Positions 29,111 through 43,000 of a stretch of DNA of 43,244 nucleotides are shown in pieces; the stretch's first letter is position 1; the number at the start of each line of letters is the position of its first letter. The position numbers were made by a program, and so were the translations under genes. The stretch is from Gammaproteobacteria bacterium. Its GTDB lineage: Bacteria; Pseudomonadota; Gammaproteobacteria; Steroidobacterales; Steroidobacteraceae. The notes under the pieces were generated by a model, which saw only the letters and a list, made by a program, of their open reading frames with translations, did not search any database and had not been told where the DNA came from. The stretch covers positions 1 through 43,244 of the forward strand of contig JAFAPI010000231.1 of NCBI GenBank assembly GCA_019247195.1, in the 5' to 3' direction.

Positions 29111-31293
<2,183 letters not shown>

Positions 31294-33482: not shown

Positions 33483-33793
33483 GCCCGAGTGGCGGAATTG
33501 GTAGACGCAGCGGACTCAGAATTTTGAGCCCCCGTGGGGAAATCCGCGGGGTGAAGCCCGTCAAACTCGGCGAAGGCCCGCGTTAGGATCACCGCGAGCT
33601 GACACCGAGCCAAGCCTGCACCTCGGTGCAGGAAGGTGTAGAGAGCAGACGGCGGGCACCTAAAGCCGAACGGCCACGGTGAAGGCGTGCTCCAGACCAC
33701 GAACCCGGCGGGGCCGGGGCGGCGCAAGTCGAAGTGGTACGAAAATCCGCCGCCCTTAAAAGCGTGTCGGTTCGACTCCGACCTCGGGCACCA
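33483..33793 (+). tRNA. tRNA-Leu (anticodon CAA) interrupted by a group I intron
   Basis: Exon 1 is 33483-33517 (35 nt) and exon 2 is 33742-33793 (52 nt), giving an 87-nt mature tRNA with encoded CCA. The acceptor stem GCCCGAG/CTCGGGC is perfect, the anticodon stem GCGGA/TCCGC is perfect, the T stem GTCGG/CCGAC is perfect, and the long variable arm (CGC..GCG) is that of a class II tRNA-Leu. Joining the exons gives loop C-U-C-A-A-A-A, so the anticodon is CAA, reading UUG codons; the loop and D-arm match E. coli tRNA-Leu(CAA). The 224-nt insertion after C34 is annotated separately. Without splicing the anticodon arm is broken. Confidence 0.95.
33518..33741 (+). ncRNA. Group I (IC3-type) self-splicing intron in tRNA-Leu
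   Basis: 224 nt, no open reading frame for an endonuclease. The guide sequence TTGAG (33524-33528) pairs with exon CTC plus AG across the 5' splice site (P1), and TTTT (33522-33525) can pair with exon-2 AAAA (P10). P2 is a 9-bp stem (33530-33538 with 33543-33551) capped by a GAAA tetraloop. P3 pairs CTCGG (33566-33570) with CCGAG (33605-33609). P7, the guanosine site, pairs GAGCA (33643-33647) with TGCTC (33688-33692), next to the conserved AGACGG. A GCAA-capped stem lies near the 3' end, and the last intron base is G. The core resembles the Azoarcus and cyanobacterial tRNA introns. Confidence 0.93.
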
Positions 33794-40005: not shown

Positions 40006-43000
40006 GCTCGGCAAACACGTTGCCACCCGCAGCCGCGACAGCCTGCAGGCGCTCGAGCGCAGAACCTGATGCGCCGGCATTGCGCGCCTGGAAAGCGCGC
40101 ACAGCGCTCACCTGCCCCTGCTTCTCCTCCTCGGTAGAACGGATCAGCTCAGCACCCTTGTGCTCCTCGGCGCCATCGGCTCCGGACAGGAAAGTGTTCA
40201 CGCCCACGATCGGCAGCGAGCCGTCGTGCTTCTTGGTCTCGTAGTAGAGCGATTCTTCCTGGATCTTGCTGCGCTGGTACATGGTCTCCATCGCACCCAG
40301 TACCCCGCCCCGCTCGGCCAGGGCCTCGAACTCCTTGTAGACGGCTTCCTCGACCAGGTCGGTCAGGTAGTCAATCGCGAACGAGCCCTGCCAGGGGTTC
40401 TGGATCTTGTTGAGACCCAGCTCGCGATTGATGATCAGCTGGATCGCCACTGCGCGGCGGACGCTCTCCTCGGTAGGTGTCGTGAGCGCCTCGTCGTAAG
40501 CGTTGGTATGCAGACTGTTGCAGTTATCAAAAAGCGCATAGAGCGCCTGCAGGGTGGTGCGGATGTCGTTAAAGGCTATCTCGCGCGCATGCAGACTGCG
40601 ACCGGAGGTCTGCACGTGGTACTTCAGCATTTGACTGCGTGCCGCCGCGCCGTAGCGTTCACGCATCGCCCGCGCCCAGATGCGTCGCGCCACACGGCCG
40701 ATCACCGCGTACTCTGCGTCCATACCATTGGAGAAGAAAAACGAAAGGTTCGGCGCGAAATCATCGATCTTCATGCCGCGGGCCAGGTAATACTCGACGA
40801 TGGTGAAGCCGTTAGCGAGGGTGAAAGCGAGCTGCGAGATCGGATTCGCGCCGGCCTCGGCGATGTGGTAGCCGGAGATTGAGACCGAGTAGAAATTACG
40901 CACCTGGTGCGCAATGAAATACTGCTGCACGTCTCCCATCATGCGCAGCGCGAACTCGGTGGAGAAGATGCAGGTGTTCTGCGCCTGGTCTTCCTTGAGG
41001 ATGTCCGCCTGCACGGTGCCGCGCACAGCCTGGAGCGCCGCGGCGCGGATGCGCTGATATTCCTCCGCCTCGAGCAGCTGCTCGCCACTTAATCCCAGAA
41101 GCGCCAGCCCAGACCCGTCGTGGTGCGGCGGCAGCCCGCCGCGATATGTGGGTGCGGCGCAGCCGCGCGCTGCCGCCGCGGCGTGCAGCGTGGCGATGCG
41201 TTGCTCGGCCTGGGCCCAGCGGCCCTGCGAACGCAGGTAACGCTCGACCTGCTGGTCGATAGCGGTATTCATGAACATGGCGAGCAGCATCGGTGCCGGC
41301 CCATTGATGGTCATGGACACCGAGGTTGCCGGATCGCACAGGTCGAAGCCTGAGTAGAGCTTCTTCATGTCATCGAGCGTCGCAATCGAGACCCCGGAGT
41401 TACCGGTGCGACCATAGATATCCGGTCGCGTGTCCGGGTCTTCGCCGTAGAGCGTGGTGGAATCGAAGGCGGTGGAGAGGCGCGGCCCGTGGCCGTGCGC
41501 CAGATAATGAAAGCGGCGATTGGTGCGCTCGGGCGCTCCCTCGCCGGCGAACATGCGGGTCGGATCTTCCTCCGTGCGCCGGTACGGGTAAACCCCGCCC
41601 GTGTAGGGATAGGCGCCGGGGAGGTTCTCGGTGAGGATGAAATGCAGCAGCTCCCCCCAGTCCTCCACGCGCGGCAATGCCAGTTTGGGGATCGGCATGC
41701 GGGCGAGACTTTCGGCGTAATTTTCGCCGCTCACTTCGCGGCCCCGCACGCGGTAGCGGTAGGTGGCCGCGCTCGCGGCCTGGGCCCGCTCGGGCCACGC
41801 CCGCAGCTCGGCGCAGGCCGCGGCTCCCATCTCCTCGAGTGCCTGGTTGTAAGCGATGCGCAACTCGCGGCGTGAGGCATCTGCGGTGCCGTCGGCCAGC
41901 AGCGCGGGCGGATAACTGTCGAGCGGACCTGGCAGCGCACCATCGTGCAGCGTCCGTAGTGCCTGATACAGCGCATAGGCCCGCCGCGCGGCCGCGCATT
42001 GCGCCTCGGCTTCGGCGCGCAGCTCACGCCCTGCCTGGGCGATCTCGGCGAGGTAGCGGATGCGGGCGGGCGGGATGAGGGCGGCGCCGGGTGCGCGGGC
42101 CGGGGGCTGAGAACCGGGCAGCTGCCAGTCGCCCGCGCCGATATGGCGTGCTGCCAGCGCCGCGCACAAGGCGGTGAATAGCTGGTTCACGCCCGGATCG
42201 TTGAAACGGCTCGCTATCGTCGGAAAGACGGGTAACTCTGCATCCGGCAGCTGCGCCTGCTGGGGGTGGTTACGGCGCCACTGCTTACGCACGTCGCGCA
42301 GACTGTCCTCCGCACCGCGTTTCTCACTCTTGTTAAGCGCGATGAAATCGGCGTAGTCCAGCATGTCGATCTTTTCCAGCTGACTCGCCGCTCCGTACTC
42401 GCCGGTCATCACATAGACCGACAGGTCGACCAGATCGACGATCTCGCTGTCGGATTGCCCAATGCCCGCGGTTTCGACCAGTACCAGGTCGAAGCCGCTC
42501 GCCTGATACAGGGCGACGACTTCCTTGAGCACCGCGGCGGTGGCCAAGTGCGCCCGCCGCGTCGCCAGCGAACGCATGAAGATGTTCTCGGCGGCCAGGC
42601 TGTTCATCCGGATCCGGTCGCCCAGCAGTGCGCCACCGGTGCGGCGGCGTGTCGGGTCCATGGCGACCACCGCGATCTGCAGCGCAGGGAACTGACGTAC
42701 CAGCCGCGCGAGCAGCTCGTCCGTGAGACTCGACTTGCCCGCGCCGCCGGTACCGGTGATGCCTATGACCGGGACCCGCTGGCGACTGCGTGCCAGCGCG
42801 CGTCGGATCTGCTCGGCCTGTGCCTCGCCCCCATTCGCGCCCTCGAGCACCGAAATGGTGCGCGCGATCAGCCCCTGATCACGCGCGTTGAGCGGCCGGA
42901 ACTCATAGGGCGGTTTGCGCACGGCCGCTAGCCGCCTGAAAACATCGTCGATCATGCCGGCGAGGCCGAGGCGGCGTCCATCTTCCGGGGTGTAGATCTT

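Follow-up and report, generated by a model that had tools for sequence, protein, structure and literature searches.

A group I intron with a C-G 5' splice-site pair in bacterial tRNA-Leu(CAA), and its possible role as a mask of an element's attachment core

The IC3-type group I introns of tRNA-Leu(UAA) in cyanobacteria and proteobacteria are inserted after position 34 of the tRNA; the intron described here, from a tRNA-Leu(CAA) gene of a Steroidobacteraceae bacterium, has the same insertion point, a guide ending in GAG, the same core motifs and the same P9 layout. It differs from them in its CAA anticodon, in a C-G pair that takes the place of U-G at the 5' splice site, and in its P7, GAGCA/UGCUC, which is unlike that of most UAA introns seen. 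To our knowledge, U-G at the 5' splice site is near-universal among group I introns; the wobble pair is read by J4/5 and J5/4 in known structures, and C-G in its place impairs the ribozymes that have been tested. In 1995 Hur and Waring reportedly described C-G in place of U-G at the 5' splice site of two group I introns; the substitution is the same as that seen here, but the introns are reportedly others than that of tRNA-Leu(CAA). Integrative and conjugative elements (ICEs) of the Tn4371 family carry trb-type transfer genes.

Tn4371-family ICEs, for example ICE-KKS102-4677, use tRNA-Leu as their integration target (PMC9960961); the target is shared with the elements described below, and one of these has trb-type genes, a likeness that does not imply membership, and no carried tRNA or intron is mentioned in the available text of that paper. 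Group I introns are known from tRNA-Ile2 of Acidovorax and Burkholderia and from tRNA-fMet of cyanobacteria (PMC8450103); these likewise lie in tRNA genes that tRNA finders miss, and the tRNA-fMet intron is in the anticodon loop, however the tRNAs are others than Leu(CAA), and the accessible part of the paper draws no link to att sites. Guerrero-Bustamante and Hatfull (2024) have described tRNA-dependent lysogeny and the replacement of tRNAs by integrating phages (PMC10865867); that work, in the text available, deals with phages and does not discuss introns, whereas the spare tRNA here is split by a ribozyme and the element examined carries conjugation genes. As PMC4390854 and PMC4033280 cite it, Randau and Soll proposed that a tRNA gene resists integration once it is split or interrupted; there too the interruption removes the integration target, but the disrupted genes covered by those citations are mainly archaeal, whereas the features here are a predicted self-splicing intron, the element's own core, and a spare gene on the element. 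The idea of blocking by interruption is already known, and so is tRNA replacement by integrating phages; it is the combination of intron, element's own core and spare tRNA that appears new, and searches of mainly open-access literature listed no paper seen to give an account of tRNA-Leu(CAA) group I introns or of an att-masking intron.

The window is the whole stretch of DNA analysed, 43,244 nt (positions 1 to 43,244 of contig JAFAPI010000231.1, assembly GCA_019247195.1). Its features are as follows, with the basis of each at the end of the line:

33483-33793, + strand: entire tRNA-Leu(CAA) gene, interrupted by a group I intron; sequence
33483-33517, + strand: 5' exon, tRNA positions 1-34, last base C34; continuous with exon 2 in intronless relatives
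33518-33741, + strand: group I intron (IC3-like), 224 nt, last base omega-G 33741; conserved core, covariation, empty sites
33742-33793, + strand: 3' exon, A35-A36 through the encoded CCA; 49-52 nt identical in intronless relatives
33515-33528, + strand: P1, CTCAG 33515-33519 with guide TTGAG 33524-33528, splice-site pair C33517-G33526; alignment column pair
33530-33551, + strand: P2, 33530-33537 with 33544-33551; both-side changes in 7/8 pairs
33556-33657, + strand: P3, GCCCGTC 33556-33562 with GGCGGGC 33651-33657, pseudoknotted core helix; 95.8% of cells paired, 4/7 pairs covary
33566-33609, + strand: P4, 33566-33570 with 33605-33609, with P5 and the J4/5 and J5/4 bases within; alignment
33615-33632, + strand: P6, 33615-33621 with 33626-33632; 7/7 pairs covary
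33641-33693, + strand: P7 (guanosine site), G33641 and G33643-A33647 with 33688-33693; 100% of cells paired
33696-33738, + strand: P9, 33696-33700 with 33734-33738, with P9.1 and P9.2 within; alignment
33515-33745, + strand: would-be att core CTCAAAA (anticodon loop 32-38), as CTC 33515-33517 plus AAAA 33742-33745; relatives' elements
30238-31293, - strand: queA; Pfam Queuosine_synth, also flanking several intronless alleles (synteny)

The gene has the 7-bp acceptor stem, the long variable arm and the CCA of a tRNA-Leu, and CAA as its anticodon once the exons are joined. In eight genomes of the same genus whose sequences were read, the intronless gene reads GGACTC/AAAATCC (the slash marks the junction), that is, exon 1 joined to exon 2; because these alleles are continuous at the predicted point, they fix both the junction and the CAA anticodon. 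The sequence-only reading, which had called a tRNA-Leu(CAA) with an insertion after position 34, is borne out by these exact empty sites, and its coordinates and base assignments are correct to the base; the guide TTGAG and the C-G pair 33517/33526 that it had described are confirmed in the sequence and in the alignment. It had also allowed for another exon boundary with a U at the splice site, which the intronless alleles rule out here: if the site were shifted to follow U33, the base preceding exon 2 would have to be C, whereas the last base of the intron is G. Several intronless and intron-bearing genes have the queA side of the locus in common.

ARAGORN reported no tRNA in the window, and an Rfam Intron_gpI covariance search, suggested earlier as a check, gave no match in the window or the whole genome, even at E values up to 10. 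Rfam release 15 at gathering thresholds likewise returned nothing in 12 related loci that hold group I introns (L031, L034, L116, L122, L002, L018, L051, L192, L142, L155, L180, L183). As L031 and L034 are ordinary tRNA-Leu(UAA) introns and the model misses them too, its silence looks like a limit of the model, a gap in the tools and not in the gene; the tRNA finder and the Rfam scans used here have a blind spot for these genes.

The fold was assessed in an alignment of 54 precursors (49 CAA, 5 UAA) selected from the introns collected. Over the 54 sequences 91.3% of cells pair, against 32.3-45.7% when partners are slid by 1-3 columns, a control in which the structure is somewhat favoured by having been set by hand from the window sequence, the first row; both-side changes occur in 46 of 71 pairs, against a shuffled mean of 28.7, and 0 of 500 shuffles reach as high. 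A P3-P8 pseudoknotted core with the P7 guanosine site, as expected of group I, is present (P3 95.8% and P7 100% paired), and P7 pairs in 54/54 sequences with compensatory changes; it reads GAGCA/UGCUC in the window intron and GACU/AGUC in other relatives, and three of its pairs show compensatory change. P1 forms by CTC/GAG pairing, and all 126 of the 126 parsed CAA introns (the matches listed plus those of the genus) end in G, with 3' ends picked by exon match and not by the G. The covariation supports the fold of the window intron and is not due to chance.

The splice-site column of this alignment is C-G in 49/49 CAA rows and U-G in 5/5 UAA rows, so that the U-G wobble, a near-universal and not strictly defining mark of group I introns, is absent from every aligned CAA intron; C34 at the splice site is demanded by the CAA anticodon. 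It had been proposed that the intron either tolerates C-G or compensates for it elsewhere. J4/5 and J5/4 together read AA/AA in 26/30 CAA introns outside Steroidobacteraceae and Bdellovibrionales, in 2/16 of the Steroidobacteraceae group, in 2/3 Bdellovibrionales and in 2/5 UAA introns; a lineage-wide change of the wobble receptor was set aside, the pattern being drift in one group, with UAA introns varying as well. P7 was also rejected as the compensating element, as viral and resident tRNA-Leu(UAA) introns with U-G have the same P7. With no consistent compensation found in J4/5 and J5/4 of the 54 introns or in the P7 comparison, that half of the proposal finds no support, and the other half stands in a qualified form: C-G seems to be tolerated. 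A site after U33, which retains a U-G pair, fits an alphaproteobacterial CAA intron (L075) and a UAA intron (L061). The set provides a large natural sample of C-G introns beside U-G sister introns in tRNA-Leu(UAA), and therefore close natural pairs in which the near-universality of U-G can be tested.

A pattern scan of 84,980 genomes yielded at least 118 loci, and among those listed 103 parsed as tRNA-Leu(CAA) with an intron after C34; since the pattern demanded GAG and the J6/7 motif, C-G in this set is partly by construction, however the 23 genes of the window's genus found by BLAST, and not by pattern, also have C-G. Left out of the counts were 10 listed loci that remained unparsed (L055, L058, L077, L078, L090, L095, L097, L131, L135, L138), the three intronless alphaproteobacterial loci L056, L066 and L074, and L061 and L075, which fit the U33 site. 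Scan loci and the 23 genus genes, with duplicates removed, come to at least 102 distinct tRNA-Leu(CAA) introns, of which 97 have the P7 GAGCA and five, all from Bdellovibrionales, another P7. The window intron is thus no isolated case, C-G being present in each of the 49 CAA introns aligned, and the search for other intron-bearing tRNA-Leu genes advised in the sequence-only reading was productive: UAA in this genome and many CAA in relatives. The CAA introns come mostly from Steroidobacteraceae, Burkholderiales and Lysobacterales; named carriers include Bordetella, Caballeronia, Acidovorax, Comamonas, Cupriavidus and others, and Vallotia endosymbionts, whose reduced chromosomes of about 1.1 Mb (L103, L130, L148, L150) retain the intron-bearing tRNA-Leu(CAA). 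A metagenome-assembled genome (MAG) labelled Mycobacterium also has a CAA intron (L073), and contamination is suspected. A survey of 58 genomes of the window's genus found the gene intron-bearing in 33, intronless in 14 and split by an element in one (G496, locus L083); the rest gave divergent matches only (2) or no match at E 1e-9 (8).

Intron-bearing copies in Burkholderiales, in Lysobacterales and in a single genome of the window's genus occur as replacement genes at one end of integrative elements. Among the matches listed, a broken tRNA-Leu 5' half lies upstream in 27 of the at least 102 distinct CAA introns, 179-253 nt from the intron-bearing gene in 26 of the 27 and 8 nt in one (L093); the half runs into CTCAAAAA and then into unrelated sequence. 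The other 75 intron-bearing copies, again among the matches listed, have no half-tRNA within ~330 nt upstream. A search for tRNA halves covered 22 genomes, 16 with a split half and 6 without; among the 16 it recovered the host's missing 3' half in 14, nine of which have it on the contig of the 5' half (11.5-77.5 kb away) and five on a different contig, and it did not find the half in G070 and G071. The host 5' half and the far 3' half form 7/7 acceptor pairs in 13 of the 14 (5/7 in G074), and in 8/14 the host half is a better match for the far half than the element's tRNA is. The sequence common to both ends includes CTCAAAA in 14/14 and is exactly CTCAAAA in 12; this is the anticodon loop, positions 32-38, with the intron placed between its third and fourth bases. 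The would-be att core of the window, which is interrupted in the same way, is deduced from these 14 pairs of element ends in relatives. What looked like a 3' half at L057 and L117 was discarded, as it lies inside protein-coding-like sequence.

Nine far ends from 8 genomes were examined, and seven of them have an integrase-like ORF that starts 64-180 nt from the far half; five of the seven were scanned with Pfam, and all five are tyrosine integrases with Phage_integrase and arm-binding domains, while the calls at L187 and L188 rest on the first residues of the ORF; the far ends L182 and L186 have other genes in place of an integrase. One element encodes TrbI, CagX, VirB8 and TrbL, which are conjugation genes. 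In these relatives, then, the host gene is split at a short core without reconstruction, and a tRNA of the same isotype is carried together with a tyrosine integrase. The split hosts have no other tRNA-Leu(CAA) at E up to 0.001, and the further matches read (G062, G063, G068, G070, G072) are UAA. The tRNA-half search found the intron and no half-tRNA in two Vallotia endosymbiont genomes (G076, G077); in G078 and G081 the intron-bearing tRNA is apparently carried as cargo, the element around it having reconstituted the host tRNA as such elements normally do. The window genome has the complete gene and no half-tRNA, and none of the 10 ORFs scanned around the window's tRNA is an integrase; by eye, the sequence upstream of this tRNA resembles that of the split host gene of L083, and not the region upstream of that element's spare.

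Five alphaproteobacterial loci (L056, L058, L066, L074, L078) have a broken tRNA-Leu(CAA) 5' half with an intronless spare ~180 nt on, and in 5/5, as read from the near ends, the spare has TTCAAAA for CTCAAAA, so that loop position 32 is T and not C. The main sample may have missed intronless spares that keep the core whole, as its pattern requires the intron; a pattern census of Burkholderiales found split genes in 2 of 399 genomes, both already counted. Within the genus, element scars accompany 3 of 15 intronless genes (G005, G010 partial, G496) and 0 of 33 intron-bearing genes (one-sided Fisher p 0.026), or 2 of 14 (p 0.084) once the split genome G496 is left out, in a comparison that is post hoc and small and ignores descent; a second intron-bearing fragment at a contig end in G012 was not counted as a scar. 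The contrast fits protection and suggests it. In G005 (L046 451-537, 5184, 11163, 16991) the intronless tRNA-Leu(CAA) is followed by three more 3' halves, as from tandem elements.

The explanation that we consider probable is that the window holds a resident, self-splicing tRNA-Leu(CAA) intron, kin to the introns in element-borne spares, which masks the att core. The intron would remove itself by two guanosine-driven transesterifications, with the C34-G pair in P1. Elements, at least one of them with trb-type conjugation genes, insert in the anticodon loop of a host tRNA-Leu(CAA) at the core CTCAAAA; the insertion splits the host gene, and the carried spare tRNA would replace it. A spare whose core was whole would be open to the same integrase; because the intron lies inside CTCAAAA, the spare carried here would no longer be a target. 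The DNA of the spare, and that of a resident gene such as the window's, would be hidden from the integrase, and splicing would restore an unchanged tRNA at the RNA level. The window's gene, which no element adjoins, may be protected in this way, and the intron could have entered it by recombination with a carried spare, by decay of an old element or by vertical descent. If masking holds, it would provide a concrete reason for the presence of group I introns in the anticodon loops of bacterial tRNA genes, which many integrases use as target sites, and the intron would alter the DNA target with the tRNA unaltered.

A comparable layout is found in a phage that is reported to lack its tRNA. According to the accessible text of PMC10865867, the Gordonia phage Daredevil integrates at tRNA-Lys-TTT, does not rebuild it and has no tRNA of its own; its plaques are clear, as the authors of that paper had predicted. 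At 41821-42131 on the - strand of the Daredevil genome, NC_048021.1, lies a tRNA-Lys(UUU)-like precursor that the annotation omits and that contains a group I intron (L054, L192), and the phage's core, CGGACTTTTAATCCGC, lies ~165 nt from this intron-bearing tRNA-Lys(UUU). Daredevil may have been scored as lacking its tRNA despite having one; the clear plaques count against rescue of lysogeny by this intron-bearing tRNA in that host. Viral scans gave at least 129 parsed motif matches (at least 120 plus 9), of which 64 gave a tRNA; among the viral matches listed, one of the 64 tRNA introns has an extended core match of 16 nt, against at most 10 in shuffles, no more than 600 nt away, and the contig in question is Daredevil itself, 100% identical over 3301 nt. 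Two more viral introns reach p 0.017 and 0.033, which is chance level among 64. With an att-like core at one in 64 among the matches listed, and that one in Daredevil, phage tRNA introns in general were rejected as masks.

A wider form of the proposal is that the ribozyme was recruited as an att mask and arose as such at least twice, in the Leu-CAA elements and in the Lys-UUU Gordonia phage, with the resident genes as relics or immune alleles and C-G kept throughout; we advance it tentatively, as a possibility that falls just short of an even prospect.

The kinship with tRNA-Leu(UAA) introns that had been proposed for the window intron is upheld, as UAA introns with the same P7 occur in resident and in viral genes. 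The resident tRNA-Leu(UAA) genes of G068, G070, G079 and G080 (L339, L340, L341, L342) have the CAA-type P7 with a U-G splice site, and so do tRNA-Leu(UAA) genes on viral contigs (L313, L314, L316, L319, L321; five parsed of nine motif matches); the nearest U-G relatives of the window intron are UAA introns found in Burkholderiales, in Lysobacterales and on viral contigs. A quick maximum-likelihood tree of 118 introns places the 97 CAA introns that have the GAGCA P7 in one group (SH-aLRT 100), the CAA introns of Bdellovibrionales in a separate group (SH-aLRT 95), and the UAA introns of the window's genus in a third group on a long branch (SH-aLRT 100). Trees that hold all 97 CAA introns together are unrejected, with AU p 0.81 when the viral UAA introns are added and 0.90 with all nine UAA introns, and so is the tree that holds the nine UAA introns together (AU p 0.64); as both arrangements stand, one early change of isoacceptor within the CAA-type P7 family, in either direction, would suffice.

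An origin of the intron within this lineage, from its own intron-bearing tRNA-Leu(UAA) gene by transfer or by anticodon mutation, would account for the only other match in the window genome, a tRNA-Leu(UAA) gene that is itself intron-bearing at the same place (L031), and UAA and CAA introns are close kin elsewhere in the family. However, the UAA introns of the genus form a separate long-branch clade, so a local copy from UAA to CAA is unsupported; the CAA introns of the genus group with those of other orders, and the P7 and P3 sequences differ between the two. This origin is accordingly very improbable, and the cross-isoacceptor step suggested by the sequence-only reading has no support within this genome, where the UAA intron belongs to a distant clade, and is likely deeper in the family.

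The main competitor to masking is a history in which the intron is a neutral or selfish passenger, the spare having been copied by chance from an intron-bearing gene and the splitting of the core being an unselected by-product. Resident copies in the genus stand without an adjoining element, the two Vallotia endosymbiont genomes keep the intron where no half-tRNA was seen, and an att-like core accompanies only Daredevil among the 64 viral tRNA introns of the matches listed; moreover, sister introns occupy the corresponding position in resident tRNA-Leu(UAA) genes, which makes a passenger history somewhat more likely than it would otherwise be. Against it stand the Lys-UUU phage, an unrelated system with a similar layout, and the alphaproteobacterial loci, where the core is changed in a different way, and we hold it to be a serious but rather unlikely account. 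Less still can be said for the view that the C-G intron splices poorly or not at all, in a gene that is decaying or conditional, with UUG read by tRNA-Leu(UAA). The near-universality of U-G and the impairment of tested ribozymes by C-G speak for it, and wobble reading by tRNA-Leu(UAA) could make the gene dispensable; yet core, splice sites and exons are conserved across several orders with strong covariation, and no second tRNA-Leu(CAA) was detected in the split hosts at E up to 0.001, the other matches read being UAA. Poor splicing is for these reasons highly unlikely, and masking by a resident intron is the reading that we retain.

Related introns were met in several other settings. The IC3-type viral introns L193-L321 have, among the matches listed, parser anticodons UAA in 50 of 64, UUU in four, CAU in three and others in one or two each; in a 595-kb uncultured phage (L053 1201-1609) an HNH-like frame lies directly upstream of the P7 motif, before the tRNA 3' exon. 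Among plasmids, 1274 records, most of them enterobacterial, have matches at 60-80% identity, and the plasmid L051 (3001-3253) has, beside aac(3)-IId, a tRNA-Leu(UAA) whose 215-nt group I intron is ~71% identical to that of the window. A Burkholderiales MAG (L092, ~861 and ~1449) carries an intron-bearing tRNA-Leu(UAA) and an intron-bearing tRNA-Leu(CAA) ~0.6 kb apart.
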